Positions 47,525-61,391 of a stretch of DNA of 64,000 bases are shown here, piece after piece. The notes below the pieces were generated by a model that saw only the letters and a program-made list of their open reading frames with translations, searched no databases and was not told where the DNA came from. The stretch's first letter is position 1; every line of letters begins with the position of its first letter. Source of the stretch: Acidobacteriota bacterium (GTDB taxonomy: Bacteria > Acidobacteriota > Terriglobia > Acidiferrales > UBA7541); assembly GCA_003223245.1 (NCBI GenBank), contig QHYI01000129.1, positions 1 through 64,000 on the forward strand, given 5' to 3'. The position numbers and the translations under genes are program-made.

Positions 47525-47832
47525 GCTTAACCCTTGGAATGCGAACGCGCAGCGGCCGCCTGGCGCGTGGTCTTGTTTTGACGCATACGCGCCGCGTGGG
47601 AGGTGCCCCGCTTTGCAGCACAAAGCGGTTTGCTTGGTTGATTCGCGTGGGGCGCAAGCTAGCTTGCTGGACTGAGTGGGGTGAAGAGGTATGGTCATAC
47701 CAATAGACCAATTTTTCGTAGACAGACCCCCGATTCTACTTTTTTCTGCAGAAATTCAATGATTCACTTGACAAGCTTTCTCGTATGGTGGTACAGCGTC
47801 TATACCTATTTTGCTTCGTGGGGGAGGTCCTC
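47525..47832 (+). promoter_or_regulatory. Leader region of the TonB receptor gene with possible promoter
   Basis: 308-bp region without a gene. TTGACA at 47768-47773 is a perfect sigma-70-type -35 element; the best -10 (TACAGC, 18-bp spacing) is poor, so the assignment is weak. GGGGGAGG lies just before the receptor's ATG at 47833. No operator or riboswitch is recognised. Confidence 0.35.
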
Positions 47833-50800
47833 ATGCTGTCCAAGAGTCTCGGGAACACTATGCCTACCTCCACGCGCCTTTCCCGGCTTGCAATGGTCGC
47901 AACCATGTTGTTTGTTCTTGCCTTCGTCGGCGCCCCTCTGTATCCGCAGGGCAGCACCGGCCGCATCTTAGGAGTGGTCACGGACCAATCCGGCGGATTC
48001 GTGGCCAACGCCAAGATGACCATTACCGACGTGGCTCGGGGTGTTTCACAGACGCTAACGACCGATTCCGACGGCGCTTATGTGGCCATTGACCTTCTCC
48101 CGGGAACTTACACGGTGCGCGCCGAGTACAAAGGATTTAAGACCTTTGAGCGCAGGAATGTTCTGCTGGAGGTTGGCAAAGACGTCCGCGTGGACGCTGT
48201 GCTTCAGCCCGGTTCGACAACGGAGACGATTACCATCACCGAGGAAGTTCCCATGGTGGACACAACCTCCACAACCCTTGGCGGCACGATCAGCAACGAA
48301 ATCATCAACGACCTCCCGCTGAATGGCCGCAACTACCAGAACCTGATCTCTTTGCGCCCCGGAACTTCCATTTATCCTGGCGGCGGTCCTTGGACGCAGA
48401 CCACGAATGGCATTCGTCCGGAAGATACGAGCTACATCGTTGATGGCGTCACCAACGACGAATCCTTCATGGGGCTCAGCGTCACGAATGCTGCGGCGGT
48501 CCTTGGAGATGCAGCGACTCTCATTCCCATCGACGCGATTCAGGAATTCAATACTCAAGTCAATCCTAAAGCGGAATTCGGCTGGAAACCGGGCGCCATC
48601 ACGAGCGTTGGGCTTAAATCGGGCACAAACCAGCTTCACGGTACCGCCTACGGATTCGGTCGCGGGGATTCGTTCGACGCCCGCAACTACTTTGATCCAG
48701 TTGGCACACCAAAGACTCCCGTAGAACTGGAGCAGTACGGGGGAAGCCTGGGTGGGCGGATCATTCCTGACAGGCTGTTTTATTTCGGTTCCTTTGAAGG
48801 CCAAATGTATACCGTCGGCAATGCGCTTCCGGGACATGTCCCGACAACCGCATCGATTGCTGGCGGCGGAGGCAATGGATGCGTCGTGTTGACTACCGGA
48901 GACTGTACCATGAGCATTGCGGATGCCACCGCTGACCTGCAAGCGAAGAATCCAGGCTTCGTTGTAAACTCACTCTCCAACTATTTGTTGGGTTTCTATA
49001 CTCCGAACGCCTCGCAGGGGTCGTTTGTCTCGCTGAACTATCCCAATGTGAACAGCTCAAAAAACGCCCTTGGTAAAGTGGATTATCACGTCAGCGATCA
49101 CAATGCTCTGAGCGGCTCGTATTTCTTCGGCAACGACACCATCATTGGTATGGACTTCAATGAGCTTCTTCCGCAGTTCCGGACAAGAGTCCACTCCCGC
49201 GCGCAGGCGCTAGCCGCACACTGGGCCTGGACACCGAGCTCCACTTGGGCCAATGAGCTGCGCGGCGGCTTCACCCATTACACTTTGCAGATTTTGCCCA
49301 ATGACATCTCTACGAAGTACACGATCAACACCGGGATTACCAATCCTTTGCTCAACGGCATTCCGAATATTCGAATCCCCGGCTTTACGGAACTGGGAGC
49401 CTTTCACAACTTTCCGAAAATTGTGGGTCCAGATAAGGTCTATGACTTTATCGATCAAGTTTCCAATCTGCACGGCACTCATGCCTTCAAATTCGGAGGA
49501 GAGCTGCGGCGAGACCTGGTTCATCAGGCGACCTTCCGCGCGGGGAGGGGAAGAGTCCGATTCAATTCTCTGGAGGATTTTCTCAGCGGGAGCGTACACA
49601 ATGTCAATTTTCTGGCCGGTGATCCTACCCGCAACATGTCACAGTGGCTCTACGCTGGTTACGCACAGGACGACTGGCGCATTACGAAAAAAATTACGCT
49701 AAACCTAGGATTGCGCTATGAGTTCCAGGGCGTTCCCACGGATTCCAGGAATCTTCTTGGCAATCTTGACCTAGCAACGGGAGGATTCGAACAAGTGAGC
49801 AAGAACATTAGTTCGATTTACAACCCCGATCATAAGAACTTTTCTCCCCGAGTTGGTATCGCGTGGGACGTCACAGGCAAGGGAACGACTGTCGTTCGCG
49901 CGGGTGGTAGCGTCGTTTACAGCCTGCTTACCTTGAGTACCTTCATGTCCCAGCAGAACACCCAGAACACCGTAACCCTTGGTGTGGGAACTGTCCCGAC
50001 AGGTGCCACGATTGTCTTGAATGGTGTTGCAACGCCGGGGATTGGAAACATTTTTGCGACCGGCGTCACGCTCCCAGGCTCGAACCTTGCCTGGAAGGAT
50101 CAGTCAACTGCCATCTACCCCTCGAGCGTTACTGGTGCAGTGCAATGCGGAGATGGCGCGGGAAACGACCCAGGGCCGTGCGACACTTTTGCCCTGGAGC
50201 GGAATTTCCGCACTCCTTACGTCGAAAATTGGACCCTGGGTATCCAGCATGCTTTTTCGGGCAAGCTCTCTCTGGATGCCACATACGTTGGTAATCATGC
50301 AGTGAAATTGCCGGGCGTTGTCGATCTCAATCAGCCCCCCGTGGGTTCGGGTTGGAGTCCCGCGGAGATTACCGCTTGCTTTAATTCGGGTTTTGACCCG
50401 AGTAATCCTAACTGCGCTCCCGATGGCGGGGCAGAGGGGGCAGCTCTCCCTTATACCGTTAGCGGTAAGGCAACCTACCTCGGATTCGTCAATTATTTGT
50501 CAAATCTGTATGGTTCTACCTACCATGGCCTGCAAACCACTCTGACTGCCCGCAACTATCATGGCCTCGATTTCGTGACGGGCTATACTTACTCCCATGC
50601 CCTGGATGATTTGTCCTCCAACTGGGTCGCTTTCCTTCCCATGGACAGCACGCATCCTTTGTTGGACCATGGCAGCAGCGACGAAGATATTCGTCACCGC
50701 TTCACCTTTTCTATTACGTACACTCTTCCCGAGATGAAGACGAAGAGCCAGCTTTTGGAAGGCTGGCAGGTCAATACCATCATCTCGATGCAAAGCGGCC

Positions 50801-51399
50801 AGCCGTGGAATATCAATGACCAGTCTTTTGATTTCAGCGGAACCGGCGACCTTGCCGACCGCTGGAATTTTTACGGAATGAACGGAGGAAATGGGAATCC
50901 TCCTGACTTCAAGTCGCAGGGTCCTAATGGGCTTCCCTATTTTCCAGGCACCAGCAATTCAGCCTGCGCTGCGAAGGCTGCGGCTCTCGATGGAAGCGGA
51001 GTTCCACGGTTCACGACAGCCCTCGGACTCGCGGGTTGCTACGCGAACGGCAATTCCATCCTGATTCCGAACGGGTTGGGCACGTTTGGCACCTTGGGTA
51101 GAAATGTGTTCCGTGACACGGGTTTCCACAACGTCGACCTTTCCGTCAGCAAGAATTTCAAATTCGGCGAACGCCTCCGAGCACAATTCCGCATCGAGAC
51201 CTTCAATATTTTTAATCACCCGAACTACGCTAACCCCAATGGCGCCACCAGCGGCTATGGTCAAGGCGCAAATGCCGATCCGTCTCAGCCCGGTGCCTTC
51301 GGCTGCGGCTGCTCCACTCCGGACAACGCTGCCTTCAACCCCGTGTTGGGCTCCGGCAGTAACCGGGCCATCCAGTTGGGCTTGAAATTTATCTTTTAG
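47833..51399 (+). CDS. TonB-dependent receptor, Oar-like with carboxypeptidase-regulatory domain
   Basis: 1188 residues. Signal peptide (~15-38, MVATMLFVLAFVGAPLYPQG). A CarboxypepD_reg-like domain follows (~40-120: GRILGVVTDQSGGFVANAKM, PGTYTVRAEYKGFKTFERRN), then the plug domain (IINDLPLNGRNYQNLISLRP; SYIVDGVTNDESFMG) and a large 22-strand barrel (~250-1188), including RIETFNIFNHPNYANPNGAT and a C-terminus LGLKFIF with final Phe. This acidobacterial Oar-like family imports glycans, peptides or chelates across the outer membrane with TonB. ATG at 47833 is preceded by GGGGGAGG; an upstream in-frame start at 47785 is unlikely. The DUF4440 gene follows on the same strand. Confidence 0.93.
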   Translation: MLSKSLGNTMPTSTRLSRLAMVATMLFVLAFVGAPLYPQGSTGRILGVVTDQSGGFVANAKMTITDVARGVSQTLTTDSDGAYVAIDLLPGTYTVRAEYKGFKTFERRNVLLEVGKDVRVDAVLQPGSTTETITITEEVPMVDTTSTTLGGTISNEIINDLPLNGRNYQNLISLRPGTSIYPGGGPWTQTTNGIRPEDTSYIVDGVTNDESFMGLSVTNAAAVLGDAATLIPIDAIQEFNTQVNPKAEFGWKPGAITSVGLKSGTNQLHGTAYGFGRGDSFDARNYFDPVGTPKTPVELEQYGGSLGGRIIPDRLFYFGSFEGQMYTVGNALPGHVPTTASIAGGGGNGCVVLTTGDCTMSIADATADLQAKNPGFVVNSLSNYLLGFYTPNASQGSFVSLNYPNVNSSKNALGKVDYHVSDHNALSGSYFFGNDTIIGMDFNELLPQFRTRVHSRAQALAAHWAWTPSSTWANELRGGFTHYTLQILPNDISTKYTINTGITNPLLNGIPNIRIPGFTELGAFHNFPKIVGPDKVYDFIDQVSNLHGTHAFKFGGELRRDLVHQATFRAGRGRVRFNSLEDFLSGSVHNVNFLAGDPTRNMSQWLYAGYAQDDWRITKKITLNLGLRYEFQGVPTDSRNLLGNLDLATGGFEQVSKNISSIYNPDHKNFSPRVGIAWDVTGKGTTVVRAGGSVVYSLLTLSTFMSQQNTQNTVTLGVGTVPTGATIVLNGVATPGIGNIFATGVTLPGSNLAWKDQSTAIYPSSVTGAVQCGDGAGNDPGPCDTFALERNFRTPYVENWTLGIQHAFSGKLSLDATYVGNHAVKLPGVVDLNQPPVGSGWSPAEITACFNSGFDPSNPNCAPDGGAEGAALPYTVSGKATYLGFVNYLSNLYGSTYHGLQTTLTARNYHGLDFVTGYTYSHALDDLSSNWVAFLPMDSTHPLLDHGSSDEDIRHRFTFSITYTLPEMKTKSQLLEGWQVNTIISMQSGQPWNINDQSFDFSGTGDLADRWNFYGMNGGNGNPPDFKSQGPNGLPYFPGTSNSACAAKAAALDGSGVPRFTTALGLAGCYANGNSILIPNGLGTFGTLGRNVFRDTGFHNVDLSVSKNFKFGERLRAQFRIETFNIFNHPNYANPNGATSGYGQGANADPSQPGAFGCGCSTPDNAAFNPVLGSGSNRAIQLGLKFIF

Positions 51400-51513
51400 G
51401 CTTATACTGCCGGCTGAGAGGCAAGACAATAAGCAAAGCGATGGAAGGGCCGACCTCCTCGGGCCCTCTCGCGTAAGGAAATGAGAGAGACAGTCCAGGG
51501 AGGGCCGCAAATC

Positions 51514-52395
51514 ATGAGACGTTCCGGTACGAGGAGTGTGCTCACCATACAAGCCATAGGCATCCTGTGCGTCGGTTTGCTACTTACCACGCTCAGCAAG
51601 CCGGGAGCTGCCTTGGCCGACGAACCTTCGGTTTTGCAGGATGACCGCGAATTCGTCCAAGCTGCCGCCAAAGGCAACACCGCTGCCGTTGCCAAGCTGC
51701 TGGACACCGGTTTTACCTGGACCGACGCCGAAGGCAAGACATTTTCTCGCGGCGACGTTCTTAGCTCCCTTCCTAAGCCTGCCCTCGGTGATGAAACGGG
51801 CGCGCATCAGGTTCGCCAAACGCGCAGCCAAGTGGAAGCCATCATGGCCGAGCGTGGCAACGTGCATGTACTTCGTCTTTGGGTGAAGCGCGGCTCTGCT
51901 TGGCGTTTGCTTGTCTATCAAGAAGTGGCTCTCGGCCGTCAGGAAGCAAGCGCGCACGCCTCCGGTGTGACCGACTGCGAGAATCCCTGCAAAACGATTC
52001 CTTACAAGCCCGAGAACGAATCGGAGCAAGCCATCATCGCTTCCTGGCAGGCGCTGGAGACCGCTGTCACAAACCATGACGCTGCCGCCTGGGCGCCGCA
52101 CATTGCTGACGAGTTTGCCATGCTCAGCTCCGCGAACGATCATCCGCTCACCAAAGCGGACCGCATCGCCACGCTGAATCTGCAGAAGCAAACCGGACGC
52201 GGGACTGCTCCCGCGCCACTCGTTTCCGCACAAATGTTTGATTTTGGCGACTCGGTGATCATGACCTGCCTACACCAGCCATATACCGGGAAGCCGGTTC
52301 ATGTCACTCGACTGTGGATCAAGCGCGACGGCAAATGGATTATGTCTATCAGCTTCCAGACGACCATCCAGGCCGCGCCAGCGAAGACCTCCTAG
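51514..52395 (+). CDS. Secreted protein with two DUF4440/SnoaL-like domains
   Basis: 293 residues from ATG 51514 (GGGAGGG upstream). Signal peptide (SVLTIQAIGILCVGLLLTTL...ALA). Two NTF2-like domains: the first from DDREFVQAAAKGNTAAVAKL with TDAEGKTFSRGDVLSSL; the second from SEQAIIASWQALETAVTNHD with ADEFAMLSSANDHPLTKADR and HVTRLWIKRDGKWIMSISFQ. Both keep the paired aromatic end strand (RLWVKRGSAWRL; RLWIKRDGKWIM). A ligand-binding or protective periplasmic role is inferred. It follows the TonB receptor by 114 bp and may be co-transcribed. Confidence 0.82.
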   Translation: MRRSGTRSVLTIQAIGILCVGLLLTTLSKPGAALADEPSVLQDDREFVQAAAKGNTAAVAKLLDTGFTWTDAEGKTFSRGDVLSSLPKPALGDETGAHQVRQTRSQVEAIMAERGNVHVLRLWVKRGSAWRLLVYQEVALGRQEASAHASGVTDCENPCKTIPYKPENESEQAIIASWQALETAVTNHDAAAWAPHIADEFAMLSSANDHPLTKADRIATLNLQKQTGRGTAPAPLVSAQMFDFGDSVIMTCLHQPYTGKPVHVTRLWIKRDGKWIMSISFQTTIQAAPAKTS

Positions 52396-52496: not shown

Positions 52497-53588
52497 ATGA
52501 CCGCAAACCCCGTCAAAGTCGGCATTGTGGGCCTTGGCCGCTGGGCCAAAGTCTTGACACGCGCCGCCACAAAGTCCGACAAAATCAAGATCGTTGCCGC
52601 ATTCAGCCGCTCCGAAGAGAAACGCACGGCCTTCGAACAGGACACCGGTGTCCCCACGGTTTCTGACCTGCAAACCATGCTTGCGAATCGCGAGATCGAA
52701 GGAGCCATCCTTACCGTTCCCAACGAGCAGCATTTGCCCGTCGCCGCGGAAGTCGCCAAAGCGCGCAAGCACGTCTACACGGAAAAACCCATTGCCAGCA
52801 CGCTCGAGGAAGGTTTGGAAATCGCCGCGCTCGAAAAAAAATACGCTATCACTGTTACGGTTGGCCACAGCGCCCGCCTGATGGGCGGCATTCGCAAAAT
52901 TCGCGAAGCCATCGACCGCGGCGAACTTGGCCGCATCGCCTTTATGGAAGCGAATTTTTCCAATGAGCGCGCGCTCGAGCTCACGCCCAGAACCTGGCGC
53001 TGGTACAAGCAGCTCGCCCCCGGTGGTCCGCTGTCACAGCTCGCGATTCACCAGTTCGACGTGCTGCATTATCTCGGCGGCGAAATCGTCGAAGCTAGTT
53101 CCGTAGCGTCGAAACTTTCTCCCGTCGGCGCGGAAGTCGACGACCAGTCCATGACGCTACTCCAATTCGCTGACGGCAAAGTCGGCTACGTCGGTTCGTG
53201 CTGGACTTCTCCCGGCGTCTTCGCCGTACGCGTTTTCGGTTCGAAAGGTTTGATGCACTACGAAATCGACTTCGAGACCTGGGACACGCCCGACGAGCTT
53301 CACAAAAAATCCACGCTTTACATCCAGCGCGGCAAGGATGGCTACGCCAAACGTGAAGAGCTAAAAATTCCCGAAAGCGACATGTTCCGCGCCGAACTCG
53401 AAATGTTTGCCGAAAGCTGCCGCACGGGAAAGCCCAGTGAACTTAGCGCCGATAACGGAAACTTTGCGGTTGCTGTTGTTTATGCCGCGCTCCGCTCCAT
53501 CGAGGATAACGGACGAAGAGCGCGCATTGCCGATGTTCTGAAAGAGGCGCAGGAACATGTCGCCGAAAGGATTCACAATGTTGCCTAG
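52497..53588 (+). CDS. Gfo/Idh/MocA family oxidoreductase
   Basis: 363 residues from ATG 52497. NAD(P)-binding domain at the N-terminus with KVGIVGLGRWAKV (GxGxxG), then KHVYTEKPIA (the EKP motif with catalytic Lys) and ATVGHSARLMGG-type GH-x-x-R motif (VGHSARLMGGIRK). The C-terminal sheet domain has GGPLSQLAIHQFDVLHYLGG (H-x-x-D-x-x motif with catalytic His). Oxidises or reduces a sugar or inositol-type substrate. It opens a five-gene operon: its last 11 bp overlap the creatininase-like gene start. No strong Shine-Dalgarno. Confidence 0.9.
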   Translation: MTANPVKVGIVGLGRWAKVLTRAATKSDKIKIVAAFSRSEEKRTAFEQDTGVPTVSDLQTMLANREIEGAILTVPNEQHLPVAAEVAKARKHVYTEKPIASTLEEGLEIAALEKKYAITVTVGHSARLMGGIRKIREAIDRGELGRIAFMEANFSNERALELTPRTWRWYKQLAPGGPLSQLAIHQFDVLHYLGGEIVEASSVASKLSPVGAEVDDQSMTLLQFADGKVGYVGSCWTSPGVFAVRVFGSKGLMHYEIDFETWDTPDELHKKSTLYIQRGKDGYAKREELKIPESDMFRAELEMFAESCRTGKPSELSADNGNFAVAVVYAALRSIEDNGRRARIADVLKEAQEHVAERIHNVA

Positions 53589-54381
53589 CCGCTATATCGT
53601 CGACCTGACGCAGCCGGAAATTGCGGCGCAGCTGAAAAAGCATGCGCTCGTGATTCTTCCGCAGGGCAGTGTCGAGCAGCACGGCCCGCATCTTCCCGCC
53701 GGCACGGACATTTTTGCCGCCAATATCATTGCCCATGCCGTGGCCGAGCGCATGGACGGCCTTGTTCTTCCCGGCGGGCCGCTTGGTGTCACGCCCTTAC
53801 ACATGCCGTTCGAAAGCACGATTACGCTCACTGCCGAAACGTACATGCGCGTGGTCATCGAAACTTGTGCTTCCGTTGCGCAACACGGTGCAAAATATCT
53901 CCTCATTTTGAATTGGCACGAACTGAACATCCCGCCGCTCGGCGTCGCGGCGGAAACGCTTCATCGCAAGCACGGCATGACCGTGCTCACCGTGCAAGCC
54001 TGCTTCGTCGCCGAAGAACTCTTCGGCAAAGAATCGAACGGCCTAACCCACGGCGGCGAAATCGAGGCGCTCGCCGTTCTCGCCTACCGCCCCGAGCTTG
54101 TCCACCTCGACCGCATCGAGAACTCCTCTGACCATGCCCACGGCCACAAAATGGACGCGCTTCGCCGCACGCGCAGCTATCAGCCGGTTTTGACCGACGT
54201 TCGTTCCATCGCTCCCACCGGTTGGTACGGCAGCCCGCAACACGCCACCGTCGAGAAGGCACAACGCATGCTCAACGCCGTCGCGGACTCTATCGCTACA
54301 AAGTCGGCTGAGATTTTCAAACAGCTCGATAAACTGCAGAGCGGCGTCGCCGAAATCAAAACGTTGAGCAAGGCACGCTGA
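53578..54381 (+). CDS. Creatininase-family amidohydrolase
   Basis: 267 residues from ATG 53578. The metal centre is recognisable: LPQGSVEQHGPHLPAGTDIF (Glu, His, Asp) and LILNWHELNIPP, where creatininases normally have N-G-H-x-x-N; here the segment is N-W-H-E-L-N, keeping His and acidic Glu at altered spacing. GGEIEALAVLAYRPELVHLD corresponds to the later Glu-containing stretch. Members hydrolyse cyclic amides or lactams, for example creatinine, or act on formamides. It overlaps the oxidoreductase by 11 bp, and its stop overlaps the cupin ATG (TGATG). Confidence 0.85.
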   Translation: MLPSRYIVDLTQPEIAAQLKKHALVILPQGSVEQHGPHLPAGTDIFAANIIAHAVAERMDGLVLPGGPLGVTPLHMPFESTITLTAETYMRVVIETCASVAQHGAKYLLILNWHELNIPPLGVAAETLHRKHGMTVLTVQACFVAEELFGKESNGLTHGGEIEALAVLAYRPELVHLDRIENSSDHAHGHKMDALRRTRSYQPVLTDVRSIAPTGWYGSPQHATVEKAQRMLNAVADSIATKSAEIFKQLDKLQSGVAEIKTLSKAR

Positions 54382-54779
54382 TGGCGCGCGTCTTTACGCA
54401 AGCCCAAGCGAAGCGCCTCGGTCTTCCTGGCCGCACGGCGCTAGAAATCATCTCCGGCGAAAAAGGCTCGCGTGCCGTGACGCTGCGTCTGGCTGAAATC
54501 CCCGTTCCTCAGCCGGGCGAAATTCCTCGCGGCCCGCACCAGCATTACGATTTCGAGGAATGCATTTACGTTTTGTCCGGCACCGGCACAACATACGCCG
54601 ACAGCGGCGAATTTCCTCTCAAGCCTGGTGACACGCTCCTGATACCGGCAGGCGAAAAGCACGTCACGCGCAACACCGGGACCGAGCCGCTCTTGCTGCT
54701 CTGCTTCTTTCCCGTCGCCGACATGACCAAGGGAACGCAAGAGCACGCCTCTTCTTCCAGCACGTCCCGCAGATCATGA
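54381..54779 (+). CDS. Cupin-domain protein
   Basis: 132 residues, a single cupin barrel. The metal motif is complete: GPHQHYDFEECIYVLSGTG (H-x-H-x(5-6)-E) and PAGEKHVTRNTG (second His motif with G). The N-terminal stretch before the barrel (residues 1-40) is short. Cupins may be isomerases, dioxygenases or ligand sensors, and this one cannot be assigned further. ATG overlaps the creatininase stop; its own stop overlaps the next ATG (ATGA), so the whole operon is coupled. Confidence 0.85.
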   Translation: MARVFTQAQAKRLGLPGRTALEIISGEKGSRAVTLRLAEIPVPQPGEIPRGPHQHYDFEECIYVLSGTGTTYADSGEFPLKPGDTLLIPAGEKHVTRNTGTEPLLLLCFFPVADMTKGTQEHASSSSTSRRS

Positions 54780-55756
54780 CCATCGACGTGCTCTGCCTGC
54801 GCCCCGAGGCGGATTTTCTGCGCGCGGGCGTGACGCCCCCGGGCGCACTAAGAGTTGCCTACCGCGCTCCTGACGATCCCGATGTTCCAGCGCTGATGCG
54901 GCAAGCTCGCGCTCTGGTCATTCCGGCCGTCGGGCGTAAGCTTGCCCCAGCGACGTTTGAAAAAACATCCGTAAAATTTGTCCAAGTCACCGGCGCGGGC
55001 CTCGACCGTCTGGACTTGAAGTTGATGAAAGGCCTTGGCATCGCCGTGTCCAATGTTCCGGGTGGCAGCAACCAAGCCGTCGCAGCATACGTCGTCGCTG
55101 CTGCGACCGTTCTTCTTCGCCGCTTCGCCTGGGCTGATGCGGAAATTCGCATTGGCCGTTACCGCGAATTTCGCGCCAAAATGCTCGCAGACAATCTTTC
55201 CGGGCTTGACGGCCTCACCGCCGGTGTTGTGGGTCTAGGCGTGATCGGTTTGGCCGTTGCCGAAGCTCTTCACAAAAATGGTTGCAATATTATTTATTTC
55301 GATCCCACTCTGCGCGACCTGAAAGCGGCCGCATCGTTCGGCGCAAAAGCCGTCTCGCTCGATGAGTTGCTGAAGATCGCCGATGTCGTCACCTTGCACG
55401 TTCCGCTGCTTCCATCCACGCTAGGTCTCATTGGTGCGCGGGAACTCGCGCTGATGAAACGCGGCACGATTCTTATCCAGGCTTCGCGCGGCGGCATCGT
55501 CGATGAGACCGCCCTCGCCGCTGCCCTCAACTCCGGCCATGTCGGCGGCGCTGGAGTCGATGTTTTCTCCTCCGAGCCTCCCGCCGCTGACAATCCGCTC
55601 CTCGCCCTCTCAGGCGATGCTGCCCGGCGCGTCCTTCTCACGCCACACATCGCTGGCGTTACGCGGCAGGCCTCCGCTTTCCTTTTTCGTTCCGCTTGGA
55701 GCAATATCGAGCGCGTGCTAATCGCCAATGAGCCGCCGCTCCATCGCGCTTGCTGA
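54776..55756 (+). CDS. D-2-hydroxyacid dehydrogenase (NAD-dependent)
   Basis: 326 residues. Substrate domain, then the NAD domain with GVVGLGVIGLAVAEALHKNG (GxGxxG) and downstream Asp for NAD. Catalytic residues: Arg in ILIQASRGGIVDE, Glu in VDVFSSEPPAADN and His in VLLTPHIAGVTRQ. It interconverts 2-keto and D-2-hydroxy acids; the closest types are glyoxylate/hydroxypyruvate reductases and phosphoglycerate dehydrogenases. Fourth gene of the operon. It overlaps the cupin by ATGA and the symporter by 29 bp. Confidence 0.9.
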   Translation: MTIDVLCLRPEADFLRAGVTPPGALRVAYRAPDDPDVPALMRQARALVIPAVGRKLAPATFEKTSVKFVQVTGAGLDRLDLKLMKGLGIAVSNVPGGSNQAVAAYVVAAATVLLRRFAWADAEIRIGRYREFRAKMLADNLSGLDGLTAGVVGLGVIGLAVAEALHKNGCNIIYFDPTLRDLKAAASFGAKAVSLDELLKIADVVTLHVPLLPSTLGLIGARELALMKRGTILIQASRGGIVDETALAAALNSGHVGGAGVDVFSSEPPAADNPLLALSGDAARRVLLTPHIAGVTRQASAFLFRSAWSNIERVLIANEPPLHRAC

Positions 55757-57122
55757 GGTGCAAAGTGAACCAGCCCCCAACGCACCCGCTGCTCTTCTTA
55801 CCCAGCCAGGAGCAGCCCGCGTGACGGCCGCCAAACCGACCGCCCGCAAGCCTTGGTACGCCATCCTTTATGTTCAAGTCCTCATCGCCATCGCTGTCGG
55901 TATTCTCGTCGGCTACTTCGCTCCAAAAACAGGGATCGCTCTCAAACCGCTTGGCGATGCGTTTGTCGGCCTCATTCGTATGATGATCGCGCCGGTGATT
56001 TTTTGCGTGATCGTGCAAGGCATCGCGGGAATGGCCGACATCAAGAAAGTCGGCAAGGTCGGCATCAAAACGTTGATTTATTTCGAAGCGGTCTCGACGC
56101 TCGCGCTGCTCATCGGCATCGTCGTCGCAGTTGCGATTCATCCGGGCGTGGGACTCAACATCAATCCCGCAACGCTCGATCCCAAAGCCGCCGCGGTTTA
56201 CGTGGGCCGTGCCAAAGAAACCGGTTTCATTCCGTTTCTTCTCAACTTTATTCCGCGCACGTTTGTGGAAGCCTTCTCCGGTGGCGAAGTTCCTCAGGTT
56301 CTTCTTGTTTCCATCCTGACCGGTTTCGCCATCGCTCCTCTCGGCGAATTGGGCGCTCGCGCTCTCCGCGCTGTCGAAGTCGCCAACAAGGTAGTCTTCG
56401 CGATCATTCGGATCATCATCCGAACCGCACCGCTTGGCGCGCTTGGTGGCATGGCTTTCACCGTCGGCAGTTACGGCATGGCCTCGCTTTCGAATCTCGT
56501 CAAGCTGATCGGCACGTTCTATCTCACCAGCGTGATCTTCGTTGTCTTCGTTCTCGGCTCGATCGCTTGGTGGGCGGGCTTTTCCATCTTTCGCTTCATC
56601 GCCTATCTCAAAGATGAACTGCTCATCGTGCTCGGCACCAGCTCTTCGGAAACCGTCTTGCCTGACATGATGCGCAAGCTCGAAGGCCTCGGTGCGTCGC
56701 GTTCCGTGGTCGGTCTGGTCTTTCCCACTGGCTACGTCTTCAACACCGACGGCACCAACATTTACCTCACGCTCTCCGCGTTGTTCCTCGCGCAAGCCAC
56801 CGGCACGCACCTCACCTTCAATCAAATGACCGGCATCTTGCTTTTTGCGCTGATCGCTTCAAAAGGGGGTTCCGGCGTCACCGGCACCGGCTTCGTCACT
56901 CTCGCCGCGATTCTTGCCGCGGTTCCCGCAATCCCTGTGCAAGGACTTGCGTTACTGGTGGGGATCGAAAAATTCATGAGCGAATGCCGCGCCCTCACCA
57001 ATGTCGTCGGCAACGGCGTCGCTACGCTGGTCGTCAGCCGTTGGCAAGGCGAACTCGACTCGGCCAAACTCCGCGAAGTCATGTCGCACCCCTCCGAGCT
57101 CGCCGCCCCGCCCGCCGCTTAA
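55728..57122 (+). CDS. dctA: Dicarboxylate/amino-acid:cation symporter (DctA/GltP type)
   Basis: 464 residues. An N-terminal cytoplasmic segment rich in Ala/Pro (~1-42) precedes the DAACS core of eight TM helices: WYAILYVQVLIAIAVGILVG, MIAPVIFCVIVQGIAGM, the serine-rich reentrant loop GTSSSETVLPDMM, FPTGYVFNTDGTNIYLTLSA (the TxxxNxDGT substrate and cation site) and GIEKFMSECRALTNVVGNGV. Imports C4-dicarboxylates or acidic amino acids with protons or sodium. The start overlaps the preceding dehydrogenase by 29 bp, completing the operon. The long N-terminal extension is unusual for DctA. Confidence 0.92.
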   Translation: MSRRSIALAEVQSEPAPNAPAALLTQPGAARVTAAKPTARKPWYAILYVQVLIAIAVGILVGYFAPKTGIALKPLGDAFVGLIRMMIAPVIFCVIVQGIAGMADIKKVGKVGIKTLIYFEAVSTLALLIGIVVAVAIHPGVGLNINPATLDPKAAAVYVGRAKETGFIPFLLNFIPRTFVEAFSGGEVPQVLLVSILTGFAIAPLGELGARALRAVEVANKVVFAIIRIIIRTAPLGALGGMAFTVGSYGMASLSNLVKLIGTFYLTSVIFVVFVLGSIAWWAGFSIFRFIAYLKDELLIVLGTSSSETVLPDMMRKLEGLGASRSVVGLVFPTGYVFNTDGTNIYLTLSALFLAQATGTHLTFNQMTGILLFALIASKGGSGVTGTGFVTLAAILAAVPAIPVQGLALLVGIEKFMSECRALTNVVGNGVATLVVSRWQGELDSAKLREVMSHPSELAAPPAA

Positions 57123-57216
57123 TGACTTGGTTCCCGTAGAGCTCGATATCGAGATTCCGGGAAGCGGTCGGAACATCACGCTCTTTGGCCTTGAAACGCT
57201 CTGAAATGGAAATCGG

Positions 57217-57816
57217 TTACTTCCGTGAATTCAGGCAGGACATCGCGCTGACCTTTTCTTCGGGCGTTTCGTAGCTTTTGCCGTTCGCATCTTTCATCGA
57301 CAGAAACACCCAGTCGCTGTTTTCTTCCGCAGTCCGGCTGAAGTCAAAAATGTAGGTTTCACTGCGGCTGATCTGGTAAGTCATCGTGCGCATCAGGATC
57401 GGATACACATTCTTCGTCGTGTCTTCCAGGGGTTGCCCGCACCGTGCCAGCAGGTGCTCTGGAGTCACGCTGGCTATCGCTTGCTCCTGTCTTCTCTCTC
57501 GTTTTTCGCTGAACCAGGCAAACGCGCGCTGCGCCACGGTGACCACCACGACCAAACCGGCAATCGTTCCCACAACCATCAGCCACACGTGTTTGGTTTG
57601 TTTCAGAAATCCCACAAAATCGGATGCCGGCGAAAATTCGCCTCTCGGGGATTCCGGCGAAACCGTCACCGGAGAGTATGGCAATGCCTTCGGAGTTCCA
57701 GCAGATGCTTTACCCGCCAGAGACTGCGCAATCTCTTTCGCTTCGGCCTGCCGCTCTGCTACGGCGGCTGGCGTCTCCCTGGAAGAGGAGCGTTCTCCTT
57801 GCTTTGTCTCGTCCAT
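57217..57816 (-). CDS. Single-TM membrane protein, uncharacterised
   Basis: 199 residues from ATG 57816 (GGCAGGAG upstream; a longer frame to 58044 lacks protein-like features). An acidic and Ser/Pro-rich cytoplasmic half (ETPAAVAERQAEAKEIAQSL), one TM helix (HVWLMVVGTIAGLVVVVTVA, ~70-90), a basic stop (FSEKRERRQE) and an extracytoplasmic domain (TPEHLLARCGQPLEDTTKNV; YQISRSETYIFDFSRTAEEN) ending in a Cys-containing tail. No family recognised. Convergent with dctA, 94 bp apart. Confidence 0.65.
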   Translation of the reverse strand: MDETKQGERSSSRETPAAVAERQAEAKEIAQSLAGKASAGTPKALPYSPVTVSPESPRGEFSPASDFVGFLKQTKHVWLMVVGTIAGLVVVVTVAQRAFAWFSEKRERRQEQAIASVTPEHLLARCGQPLEDTTKNVYPILMRTMTYQISRSETYIFDFSRTAEENSDWVFLSMKDANGKSYETPEEKVSAMSCLNSRK

Positions 57817-58619: not shown

Positions 58620-61391
58620 ATGAAGGAAAATCTTAGAGCCATCCCTTGGTTCGCAGTAATTGCGTTGATGTTGGCTGCTACCGCACTCGGCGATCCGCCG
58701 CTGGCGGTGAAAAACTTGCGCTGCGAATACAAAACGGATCCGCTGGGGATCGACGTGCTTAAACCGCGCCTGAGTTGGGAGTTGGTCAGCGGTGAAAGGG
58801 AAGTGTTGCAGACCAGCTACGAAATCCGCGTGGCCGCCTCCGAGGCGGATCTCGCAAAAGGGAGATTGGTTTGGCATAGCGGCAAGCAATCTTCGGACGC
58901 CTCGAACCAGGTGGAGTACGGCGGGCCCACGCTCGAGAGCCGCAAGATTTATTCCTGGCAGGTGCGAGTCGCCGACAACCACGGACATTTATCCGATTGG
59001 AGCGCGATCGCGCATTGGGAAATGGGACTGCTCGAACCTGCGGATTGGAAAGCGAAATGGATTACACCCGATCTCATCGAGGATGAGACGAAATCGAATC
59101 CCGTGCCGCTTTTGCGCCGGGAATTCTCTGTGAACAAGAAAGTGGAGCATGCCCGCTTGTACGCAACCGCCATGGGGCTCTACGAAATGTCGCTCAACGG
59201 CAAACGCGTCGGGCATGAATATTTCACGCCCGGATGGACTTCCTACGACTTTCGCTATCAATACCAGACCTACGACGTGACCGGCTTGTTGAAAAACCGC
59301 GCGAATTGCCTCGCGGCCATGCTGGGCGACGGCTGGTTCCGCGGCAGGTTGGCGTGGAACCCCAAGAACAACCGGAACCACTATGGCAAGAAGCTGGCTC
59401 TCCTCGCGCAAGTCGTTATCACTTACACAGACGGCACACAACAAATCCTCGCTACCGATGACCAATGGAAATCCAAGACCGGTCCGGTGCTCCTGTCGGA
59501 CATTTATGACGGCGAAACTTACGACGCGCGGCTCGAACAAGCGGGCTGGAATGAAGCGGCTTTCAACGACCGAGACTGGAAGTCGGTGACCATAATGGAA
59601 CCTCCAAAGGCAAAACTGGTAGCTTCGGCAGGACCTCCAGTTGAAGCCATCGAGGAAATCACGCCGGTAAAAGTCTTGAAGACGCCTGAGGGCGACACGG
59701 TTCTCGACATGGGGCAGAACATGGTGGGCTGGATCCGATTTAAAGTGAGCGCGCCGGCCGGAACCACTATCATACTCCGCCACGCCGAAGTGCTCGACAA
59801 AGCAGGGAATTTCTATACGGCAAATTTGCGCTCGGCCAAGCAAACGATTCGGTACACCGCGAAAGGCCAAGGAACCGAAACCTTCCAACCGTATTTCACT
59901 TTTCAGGGATTTCGTTATGTTGCCGTCAGCGGCTGGCCCGGTGAAGTAAACCCGCAGGATTTTACGGGCGTTGTCGTGCATTCGGCCATCGCGAGGACAG
60001 GGTCGTTCGAGACTTCCAATCCTCTGCTGGACCAGTTGCAGCACAACATTATTTGGGGACAGAAAGGGAATTTTCTCGATGTGCCCACGGACTGCCCGCA
60101 GCGCGATGAGCGCCTGGGCTGGACCGGCGACGCGCAGGTTTTTGCGCGCACTGCTTCGTTCAATCACGATACCGCCGCGTTTTACACCAAGTGGCTGAAA
60201 GACGTGGCGCTCGATCAAGAAGGCGATGGCGCCGTGCCCTACGTGGTTCCCAACGTTTTGTCGCATACAACGCGCAAGGGAGAAGCGGCGTCGGCGGGAT
60301 GGGCGGATGTAGCGGTGATAGTTCCTTGGGTCGTGTATCAGTCGTTTGGCGACAAGCGAATTTTGGAGGAGCAATACCCGAGCATGAAGGCTTGGGTGGA
60401 GTACATGCGCCGGCAGGCAGGAGAGAAATACATTTGGAGCAACGGGTTCAGCTTTGGAGATTGGCTCGCCTTCGCCACGACCCGCTCGGATTATCCGGGC
60501 GCAACCACGGACAAGGATTTGATTCAGACGGCGTATTTCGCTCGCTCGACGGCGCTGCTCGCAAAAACCGCTGAAGTCCTCGGCAAAAAGGAAGATCCGG
60601 CCGAATACTTGTCGTTGGAAGAGAAGATCAAGAGCGCGTTTCAAAAAGAATTTGTGACTCCCAACGGCAGGCTCGCGTCGAATACGCAGACGGCTTACGC
60701 TCTTGCGCTCGAATTCGACTTGCTTCCGCAAGAGCAACGTGCACAGGCGGCGGCAAGGCTTGCTGCCGACGTTAAGAAATTTGGCCATCTCACCACCGGA
60801 TTTTTGGGCACGCCTTTGTTGTGCCAAGTTTTGAGCGATTACGGTTATCTCGATCTCGCGTACATGCTGCTCAACCGCACCGAATATCCTTCCTGGCTGT
60901 ACCCCGTGACCAGAGGTGCGACCACCATTTGGGAACGCTGGGACGGCATCAAGGCCGACGGTACTTTTCAAGATTCTGGGATGAATTCCTTCAACCATTA
61001 CGCCTACGGTGCCATCGGCGATTGGATGTACCGCGTCGTTGCGGGCATTGAGCTCGACGAAGCGCAGCCCGGTTACAAACACATTCTGATCCAACCGCAA
61101 GCCGGTGGCGGGCTGACCTTCGCGAACGCTTCGGTCGATAGCATGTACGGCCGCGTGGCGTCCGGCTGGAAAATCGCCGACGGCAAATTCACGCTGAACG
61201 TCGAAGTCCCGCCGAATACCACAGCCACAGTCCGTCTGCCAAAAGCCAAGCTCGAGCAAGTCACCGAAGGGCAAAAGCCGCTCGCCGGCCGCACGGACCT
61301 TATTGGCGCGCGGCAAGCCGGCGACGCCGTGCTTGTCGACGTCGGCTCGGGCCACTATATCTTCGAGATGATCCCGGCCAACTCGAACTAA
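58620..61391 (+). CDS. Alpha-L-rhamnosidase, GH78
   Basis: 923 residues. Signal peptide (IPWFAVIALMLAATALG), so secreted. N-terminal beta domains (VKNLRCEYKTDPLGIDVLKP; WQVRVADNHGHLSDWS; jelly-roll region DWKAKWITPDL...YATAMGLYEMSLNGKRVG) precede the (alpha/alpha)6 catalytic barrel. The GH78 catalytic block is DCPQRDERLGWTGDAQVF (residues ~485-502, with the acidic Asp/Glu pair) and the later GATTIWERWDGI Glu. The C-terminal beta domain has YGRVASGWKIADGKFTLNVE. It releases rhamnose from polysaccharides or glycosides such as pectin rhamnogalacturonan. No other GH genes adjoin, so it is a single secreted enzyme. Confidence 0.94.
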   Translation: MKENLRAIPWFAVIALMLAATALGDPPLAVKNLRCEYKTDPLGIDVLKPRLSWELVSGEREVLQTSYEIRVAASEADLAKGRLVWHSGKQSSDASNQVEYGGPTLESRKIYSWQVRVADNHGHLSDWSAIAHWEMGLLEPADWKAKWITPDLIEDETKSNPVPLLRREFSVNKKVEHARLYATAMGLYEMSLNGKRVGHEYFTPGWTSYDFRYQYQTYDVTGLLKNRANCLAAMLGDGWFRGRLAWNPKNNRNHYGKKLALLAQVVITYTDGTQQILATDDQWKSKTGPVLLSDIYDGETYDARLEQAGWNEAAFNDRDWKSVTIMEPPKAKLVASAGPPVEAIEEITPVKVLKTPEGDTVLDMGQNMVGWIRFKVSAPAGTTIILRHAEVLDKAGNFYTANLRSAKQTIRYTAKGQGTETFQPYFTFQGFRYVAVSGWPGEVNPQDFTGVVVHSAIARTGSFETSNPLLDQLQHNIIWGQKGNFLDVPTDCPQRDERLGWTGDAQVFARTASFNHDTAAFYTKWLKDVALDQEGDGAVPYVVPNVLSHTTRKGEAASAGWADVAVIVPWVVYQSFGDKRILEEQYPSMKAWVEYMRRQAGEKYIWSNGFSFGDWLAFATTRSDYPGATTDKDLIQTAYFARSTALLAKTAEVLGKKEDPAEYLSLEEKIKSAFQKEFVTPNGRLASNTQTAYALALEFDLLPQEQRAQAAARLAADVKKFGHLTTGFLGTPLLCQVLSDYGYLDLAYMLLNRTEYPSWLYPVTRGATTIWERWDGIKADGTFQDSGMNSFNHYAYGAIGDWMYRVVAGIELDEAQPGYKHILIQPQAGGGLTFANASVDSMYGRVASGWKIADGKFTLNVEVPPNTTATVRLPKAKLEQVTEGQKPLAGRTDLIGARQAGDAVLVDVGSGHYIFEMIPANSN

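Follow-up and report, generated by a model that had tools for sequence, protein, structure and literature searches.

A conserved five-gene operon in Acidobacteriota with a tentative role in the catabolism of a sulfolactate-type organosulfonate

Which acid do five adjoining genes of an acidobacterial contig import and break down? The genes lie at positions 52497 to 57122 of a 64,000-nucleotide stretch of contig QHYI01000129.1 (assembly GCA_003223245.1); this whole stretch is called the window below. The nearest named relatives of its host are soil metagenome-assembled genomes (MAGs) called gp2, whose gene 2 is 91% identical. We found that the five genes form a conserved catabolic operon that is kept or lost as a block. 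We tentatively assign it to the breakdown of a small dianionic hydroxy acid, with a sulfolactate-type organosulfonate as the most likely candidate. An initial annotation had named the following five gene families, and Pfam matches for each open reading frame (ORF) bore out all of them.

52497..53588, + strand, gene 1, Gfo/Idh/MocA oxidoreductase (PF01408/PF22725)
53557..54381, + strand, gene 2, creatininase-family metallohydrolase with the subfamily motif NWHExN (PF02633)
54381..54779, + strand, gene 3, single-domain cupin (PF07883)
54776..55756, + strand, gene 4, SerA-type D-2-hydroxyacid dehydrogenase (PF02826/PF00389)
55821..57122 (longest ORF from 55728), + strand, gene 5, DctA-type SDF symporter (PF00375)

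Results

Conservation and selection

The comparison set consisted of 20 relatives, namely 19 fetched regions and L011. L001-L010 were not counted twice, being the same contigs as L062-L070 and L079, and neither was L014, which is from the same genome as L080. The five-gene order, which the initial annotation had proposed to look for in other genomes, is kept in all 20 relatives as far as the contigs extend. All five genes share one contig in 18 relatives, and the cassette is cut by contig ends in the other two (L075 and L079). L074 has masked bases inside its cupin gene.

Our whole-genome searches covered Acidobacteriota only. Gene 2 (E 1e-60) is present in 19 of 95 genomes of the order, including the window's own, and the cupin (E 1e-15) and the dehydrogenase (E 1e-70) occur in these 19 and no others. 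Across the phylum, 29 of 396 sampled genomes gave a creatininase-family match at E 1e-20, and the gene 2 subfamily was found only in the window's genome and in G229 (74% identical; next best 37%). Gene 1 matched at E 1e-40 in 5 of 392 phylum genomes, closely in the window's genome and G229 and at 32-33% in the three others. The cassette is under purifying selection, which is strong in the window's lineage: between the window and its relative G407, the ratio of nonsynonymous to synonymous substitution rates is 0.045 for gene 1, 0.056 for gene 2, 0.121 for gene 3, 0.151 for gene 4, and 0.085 for gene 5.

G229 (L080) belongs to another class of the phylum, and its cassette, which comes with a GntR regulator, is 66-76% identical to that of the window. 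In an unrooted joined tree, the G229 branch measures 0.41, the longest branch in the window's family measures 0.50, and the place of G229 varies by gene. A branch this short for a genome of another class suggests that the cassette was transferred laterally as a block. A reading in which G229 nests inside the window's family was dropped, because the trees have no root and contain no further outsider. The cassette was not found in 10 plasmid neighbourhoods of gene 1-4 homologues at 27-41% identity.

Two side observations concern individual genomes. In G408 (L062:4563-5344), one of the 18 relatives with all five genes on one contig, gene 4 is broken into two matching pieces in different frames with one stop, which may be an assembly error or decay. 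Upstream of the cassette in G229 are genes resembling what we take to be 2-oxoacid:ferredoxin oxidoreductase.

A sulfo-lyase operon beside the cassette in relatives

Clustering of the genes around the relatives' cassettes revealed a neighbouring operon. A GntR regulator, a small subunit, and a large GD_AH_C subunit are encoded divergently from gene 1 in 9 of the 20 relatives. Eight of them have this operon on the cassette contig (L067, L071, L072, L073, L075, L076, L077, and L011), and in the ninth, G452, it adjoins the cassette over a boundary between contigs (L107 and L079) that falls within gene 1. In G432 the cassette and the subunit genes both lie at contig ends, which is compatible with the divergent layout. 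The small subunit has 94-98 residues (L104, L106, L107) and the large one 388-391. The operon continues with a FAH-family gene in L073, L075, and L076, and in L073 and L076 also with a succinate-semialdehyde-type dehydrogenase gene.

The large subunit is 69% identical to the protein beside hpsN/hpsO in Cupriavidus pinatubonensis and 65-73% identical to three other SuyB proteins. A plasmid search with it returned 315 records, of which 13 are 65-76% identical and 302 are below 60% (39.8% in the next row shown); the rows after the SuyB matches are below 40% and mostly named "UxaA family hydrolase". We read the neighbourhoods of six of the 13 close records. Five hold a sulfate/sulfite exporter or hpsN/hpsO, and the sixth holds Ldh and hydroxyacid dehydrogenases. 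Specifically, hpsN/hpsO accompany the suyB match on the C. pinatubonensis plasmid; a histidinol-dehydrogenase-like gene, an SDR gene, and a sulfate exporter lie near it in Rhodobacteraceae SC52; sulfate exporters lie near it on two Paracoccus plasmids and a Methylobacterium plasmid; and Ldh and D-2-hydroxyacid dehydrogenases lie near it in Methylobacterium, Rhodococcus, and P. aestuarii. The genes immediately after suyAB in Methylobacterium encode a DctA-like symporter (508 of 513 bits; 44% identical to gene 5) and a SerA-type dehydrogenase. According to a review, SuyAB is the enzyme that cleaves the C-S bond in both C. pinatubonensis and Paracoccus pantotrophus (PMC9594981). Judged by these neighbourhoods and hosts, the divergent two-subunit enzyme is very probably SuyAB sulfolactate sulfo-lyase. 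A galactarate- or altronate-type dehydratase was rejected, given 150 of 731 bits against the galactarate dehydratase model and 65-73% identity to SuyB-position proteins.

The two gene sets also co-occur across genomes. suyB is present in 10 of the 19 cassette genomes versus 5 of the 76 others of the order (Fisher p 1.6e-5, ignoring kinship). Among the 10 genomes that carry the cassette together with suyB, eight lack any Ldh_2/ComC match at E 0.001.

suyB has other surroundings as well. Ldh_2 and a Cons_hypoth698 (YeiH-like) gene lie near it in the cassette-free genomes G418 and G484, the Cons_hypoth698 fragment of G418 being below cut-off, and likewise in G485, which has its cassette on another contig. 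Neither gene was recognised near suyB in the cassette-free genomes G459, G460, and G461, where no Pfam scan was made. At L104:9089-12623 and L106:9185-12706, suyAB is followed by a Cons_hypoth698 (YeiH-like) exporter gene and a DUF4440-like gene. Ldh_2 lies a few kb beyond suyAB in L104, and an SDF symporter gene a few kb beyond it in both. Within the same family, L104 and L106 thus show sulfonate genes in a second arrangement, one that lacks the cassette.

Gene layout in the window

The five genes are all intact and run in one direction. The initial annotation had them overlapping without gaps, which holds for the first three junctions: genes 1 and 2 overlap by 32 bases (53557-53588), genes 2 and 3 have one base in common (54381), and genes 3 and 4 overlap by 4 bases (54776-54779). 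It is probably wrong for genes 4 and 5. The longest frame of gene 5 overlaps gene 4 by 29 bases (55728-55756), and its ATG has no visible ribosome site. An alternative GTG at 55821 has AGGAG shortly before it and agrees with the N termini of the relatives. On both grounds this GTG is the more likely start, which would place gene 5 64 bp after the end of gene 4. A promoter and terminator scan gave nothing usable (2 promoter-like sites versus 1.3 expected).

Properties of the five proteins

The creatininase-family protein of gene 2 matches PF02633 with 190.5 bits (cut-off 31.3), and all 19 aligned orthologues match this family too. E40, H42, D51, H121, H165, and E170 are invariant, and the EQHGPHLPxGTD and HGGEIE segments are kept. 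The altered motif remarked on in the initial annotation is real: NWHE is present in the window and all 19 orthologues tested and in none of 34 more distant family rows, which mostly have NGHGG or similar. The position aligned with creatininase Glu122 is not acidic; we assume this numbering, the metal role of Glu122, and the metal roles of the gene 2 residues. Gene 2 fails the creatininase equivalog TIGR04448 (93.8 of 235 bits) and the IolN model NF041098, its third match (63 of 245 bits), and is below the MftE cut-off as well. It resembles creatininase, MftE, and the riboflavin formamide hydrolase in its Pfam family and in the EQHG...D, N-x-H, and HGGE segments. However, unlike creatininase and MftE, below whose cut-offs it falls, it carries NWHExN instead of NGHGGN or NGHYEN. 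By its motif, the gene 2 family is classed here as a separate creatininase subfamily. The creatininase family also includes the formamide hydrolase of riboflavin synthesis (PMC9478397). Given this breadth and the missed cut-offs, the ring or amide opening suggested in the initial annotation may or may not be the reaction of gene 2. The AlphaFold model of gene 2 was useless (mean pLDDT 39). We dropped an identity as a phloroglucinol-type cyclohydrolase, as the accessible part of the source places that enzyme in the "cyclase" family (PMC10470551).

The closest solved protein to gene 1 is 3db2 (Dhaf_2064; E 2.5e-71, 35% identical, Z 34.6). The AlphaFold model of gene 1 is good (mean pLDDT 80) and only confirms the fold, and a family missing from the structural list is still possible; TM_0414 (3ezy) is among the structural neighbours. 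K97 and H185 are invariant in the alignment. Q181, four residues before the His, replaces the Asp of 1zh8 and 3ezy, and is Gln in all 19 aligned sequences and in 3db2. The best NCBIfam match, IolG TIGR04380, is below cut-off (126.4 of 355 bits). In another acidobacterial family (L098, L099), gene 1 homologues of 32-33% identity stand beside a short gene that we take to be GlcG/HbpS-like, and a presumably TctA-like permease gene is near in L098.

Gene 3 keeps an intact cupin motif with invariant H53, H55, E59, and H94, presumably a metal motif, and has general cupin matches only. Gene 4 has phosphoglycerate dehydrogenase (SerA) as its best NCBIfam match, below cut-off. It is 39-40% identical to two SlcC-position proteins and 32% and 30% identical to two more, none of which is a characterised SlcC. 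R238, E267, and H291 of gene 4 are invariant in the alignment. If these residues and K97 and H185 of gene 1 are catalytic, as we assume, they fit the two redox steps of the initial annotation. In the part of a published classification that is available, SlcC sulfolactate dehydrogenase stands in or beside the SerA group (PMC6303947).

Gene 5 passes the DctA model NF002461 (584.7 of 513 bits) and fails a second one, NF009587 (527 of 570 bits). The motifs GTSSSE, NTDGTNIY, and MSECRALTN are kept in the window and 18 relatives, single changes aside. We predict a DctA-type symporter that transports C4-dicarboxylates. The coupled uptake and breakdown of a carboxylate, as initially annotated, is supported by the conserved operon, the all-or-none occurrence of genes 2, 3, and 4, and a symporter that passes one of two DctA models.

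Flanking genes

Two further genes are encoded upstream of the cassette.

47785..51399, + strand, TonB-dependent receptor with OMP_b-brl_4 and a carboxypeptidase-regulatory domain, possible outer-membrane entry
51481..52395, + strand, protein with two DUF4440 stretches (Pfam)

A close homologue of the receptor (59-92% identical) is upstream in 8 of the 19 fetched regions, those of nearer relatives and not of more distant ones. For DUF4440 upstream, there are two tandem matches in nine relatives and one in the window. What the initial annotation observed at the locus holds, and its interpretation is supported in part; these upstream genes and the SuyAB link, which is seen in relatives only, were absent from it. 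Neither outcome that it named as refuting, a gene order confined to this genome or a cluster with a substrate already assigned, came up in our searches.

On the other side, a gene for a GH78-type alpha-L-rhamnosidase (58620-61391) adjoins the cluster. It is common to the window and G407 and was not found in the other fetched regions, and we dropped it as a cassette member (1 of 19 regions). A MoCoBD gene behind gene 5 (dct) was dropped as a sixth member, since its matches occur in 49 of the 95 genomes, many of them cassette-free. The space behind dct is about 2.6 kb with the MoCoBD gene in G407 (L063) versus about 100 bases in the window (57118-57218), a clean loss or gain of this segment. Downstream of dct in L064, L065, L069, and L071 are genes for a convergent LVIVD-repeat-type protein, an NMT1/SsuA-family-like binding protein, and an FrsA-like esterase; the binding protein scores far below the cut-off of the SsuA model.

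Discussion

Proposed pathway and its difficulties

Gene content, gene order, co-occurrence, purifying selection, and the SuyAB linkage in relatives are observations, whereas the substrate, each reaction and its place in the sequence, and what becomes of the product in the window's lineage are inferred. The linked TonB receptor would take the substrate across the outer membrane, and DctA would take it across the inner one. Because sulfolactate is the sulfonate analogue of malate, DctA would be a natural sulfolactate importer. The gene 2 hydrolase and the gene 3 cupin may hydrolyse and rearrange the substrate ahead of the dehydrogenase pair, and may release or prepare the sulfonate. The SerA-type gene 4 and the Gfo/Idh gene 1 would turn hydroxy acids into oxo acids and back, like SlcC and ComC in known sulfolactate users, and gene 1 may take the place of an absent ComC. 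The lack of an Ldh_2/ComC match in most genomes that have both cassette and suyB is what suggests this role. In the nine relatives with the divergent gntR-suyAB operon, SuyAB would then split (R)-sulfolactate into pyruvate and sulfite.

Several results weigh against this assignment. No close SuyB exists in the window's genome (best 31%, in a 565-residue frame; none at E 1e-120) or in eight other cassette genomes of the order, of which G404 is 63% and G417 74% complete. In G229, the GntR regulator is present, and neither subunit is encoded within the 17 kb that surround the cassette. Xsc is above cut-off in none of the nine suyB-free cassette genomes or G229; weaker Xsc matches occur in 9 of these 10 genomes and in all 14 control genomes. 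An Ldh_2 match below the ComC cut-off is present in 7 of the 10, including the window's, and weakens the argument from a missing ComC in suyB-free genomes. Because the cassette is under selection without SuyB, it can do without SuyAB, and its substrate may be something other than a sulfonate. Where SuyB is absent, there are two options: the product is passed out of the cell or on to a different enzyme, or what is degraded only resembles sulfolactate. Moreover, gene 4 is 41% identical to an annotated phosphoglycerate dehydrogenase, and the SlcC-position proteins (30-40%) are no closer. No sulfite/sulfate exporter was recognised among the scanned cassette neighbours, and the other suyAB clusters read have MFS or tripartite transporters, not DctA. 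Finally, no chemistry explains a creatininase and a cupin acting together on a C3 sulfonate. That uncultured soil Acidobacteria have an undescribed organosulfonate pathway, with gene 1 in place of ComC, genes 2 and 3 to prepare the substrate, DctA as the missing importer, and no need of the known sulfo-lyase in the window's lineage, strikes us as rather unlikely.

Alternative substrates

The two ring-acting families, genes 1 and 2, are better accounted for by the oxidation of a sugar acid or cyclic polyol, an explanation that we regard as doubtful. In this scenario, gene 1 oxidises a ring alcohol, gene 2 opens a lactone or 1,3-diketone, the cupin isomerises, and gene 4 reduces a 2-oxo acid, and the SuyAB neighbours are an accessory island. 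IolG is the best NCBIfam match of gene 1 and IolN the third of gene 2, but both are far under their cut-offs (355 and 245 bits). TM_0414 is a structural neighbour of gene 1, but its Asp is Gln in all 19 aligned gene 1 sequences. A TonB receptor and the GH78 rhamnosidase are nearby, but beyond the window the rhamnosidase is in only 1 of the 19 fetched regions, some of which end early. Furthermore, DctA is, from what is known of the family, a C4-dicarboxylate carrier and not a sugar carrier, and the nine conserved SuyAB adjacencies are left unexplained.

The symporter, with its one passed DctA model and its DctA-like motifs, would fit the catabolism of a C4 acid (tartrate-, hydroxyaspartate-, or malate-like, including amides and imides). 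DctA would import the acid, the hydrolase would open a cyclic amide or imide, both dehydrogenases would work on the hydroxy or oxo acid, and the cupin would decarboxylate. Small hydroxy acids are family substrates of D-2-hydroxyacid dehydrogenases, and the genomes without SuyB fit too. However, the SuyAB linkage argues against it, and the scan of the window's flanking genes revealed no recognisable dehydratase, lyase, or kinase that would act on such acids. We consider a C4 acid unlikely. Very improbable, in our estimate, is the detoxification or salvage of a heterocycle or conjugate, in which DctA only exports or exchanges a dicarboxylate product and the downstream molybdenum hydroxylase, esterase, and SsuA-like binding protein of relatives belong to the system. 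A MoCoBD gene does lie 20-25 bp behind dct in L065, L067, L068, and L069, and farther on comes the SsuA-family binding protein, whose score is far below cut-off. However, the MoCoBD family has matches in many cassette-free genomes, as noted above, and was not found in the window's genome at E 1e-150, and the binding protein and the esterase are missing from some loci.

Significance and relation to known systems

Acidobacteria abound in soils, and most are uncultured. Their role in the turnover of plant-derived sulfonates is little known, and a DctA cassette beside suyAB is a concrete candidate for sulfonate import and processing. The distinctive motif marks a creatininase subfamily suitable for expression and screening. 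Even with a substrate other than a sulfonate, the cassette would be a well-delimited pathway awaiting assignment.

The initial annotation knew of no standard pathway with exactly these genes. We likewise found none described in the open-licence literature: in the text available there, no paper on the gene set or on sulfolactate genes is recognisable as describing the cassette, and nothing describing it was found in that on IolN. Peatland acidobacterial MAGs are reported to carry suyAB (SbA4 and SbA5) and slcC/comC (SbA5) and to lack the putative importer SlcHFG (2018, PMC6018796). In a sulfofucose pathway described in 2025, an oxidation-lactonase-dehydratase-aldolase route of other protein families is linked to SlcC/ComC/SuyAB (PMC12421959).

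At the protein level, Dhaf_2064 of Desulfitobacterium (3db2) shares SNERxLEL and APGGPLxQLxxHQ with gene 1. It is a protein of unknown function, for which our search of open-licence papers found no description. The Thermotoga inositol pathway resembles the cassette in having a Gfo/Idh dehydrogenase (IolG) beside a creatininase-family hydrolase (IolN), which presumably opens a 1,3-diketone or lactone; we take the adjacency of the two genes there as given. However, the cassette has a cupin, a D-2-hydroxyacid dehydrogenase, and DctA instead of the remaining enzymes.

Known sulfolactate users convert (S)- to (R)-sulfolactate through SlcC and ComC, according to the review (PMC9594981). In the pathway as described in the available sources, the Gfo/Idh oxidoreductase, the creatininase-family hydrolase, and the cupin have no counterpart; the window lacks SuyAB, and most genomes with cassette and suyB lack a ComC match. 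However, the cassette relatives share with sulfolactate degradation (SuyAB with SlcC/ComC; Chromohalobacter, Paracoccus) the adjoining suyAB and GntR genes, the SerA-type dehydrogenase, and, as beside suyAB in Methylobacterium, a DctA-like symporter.

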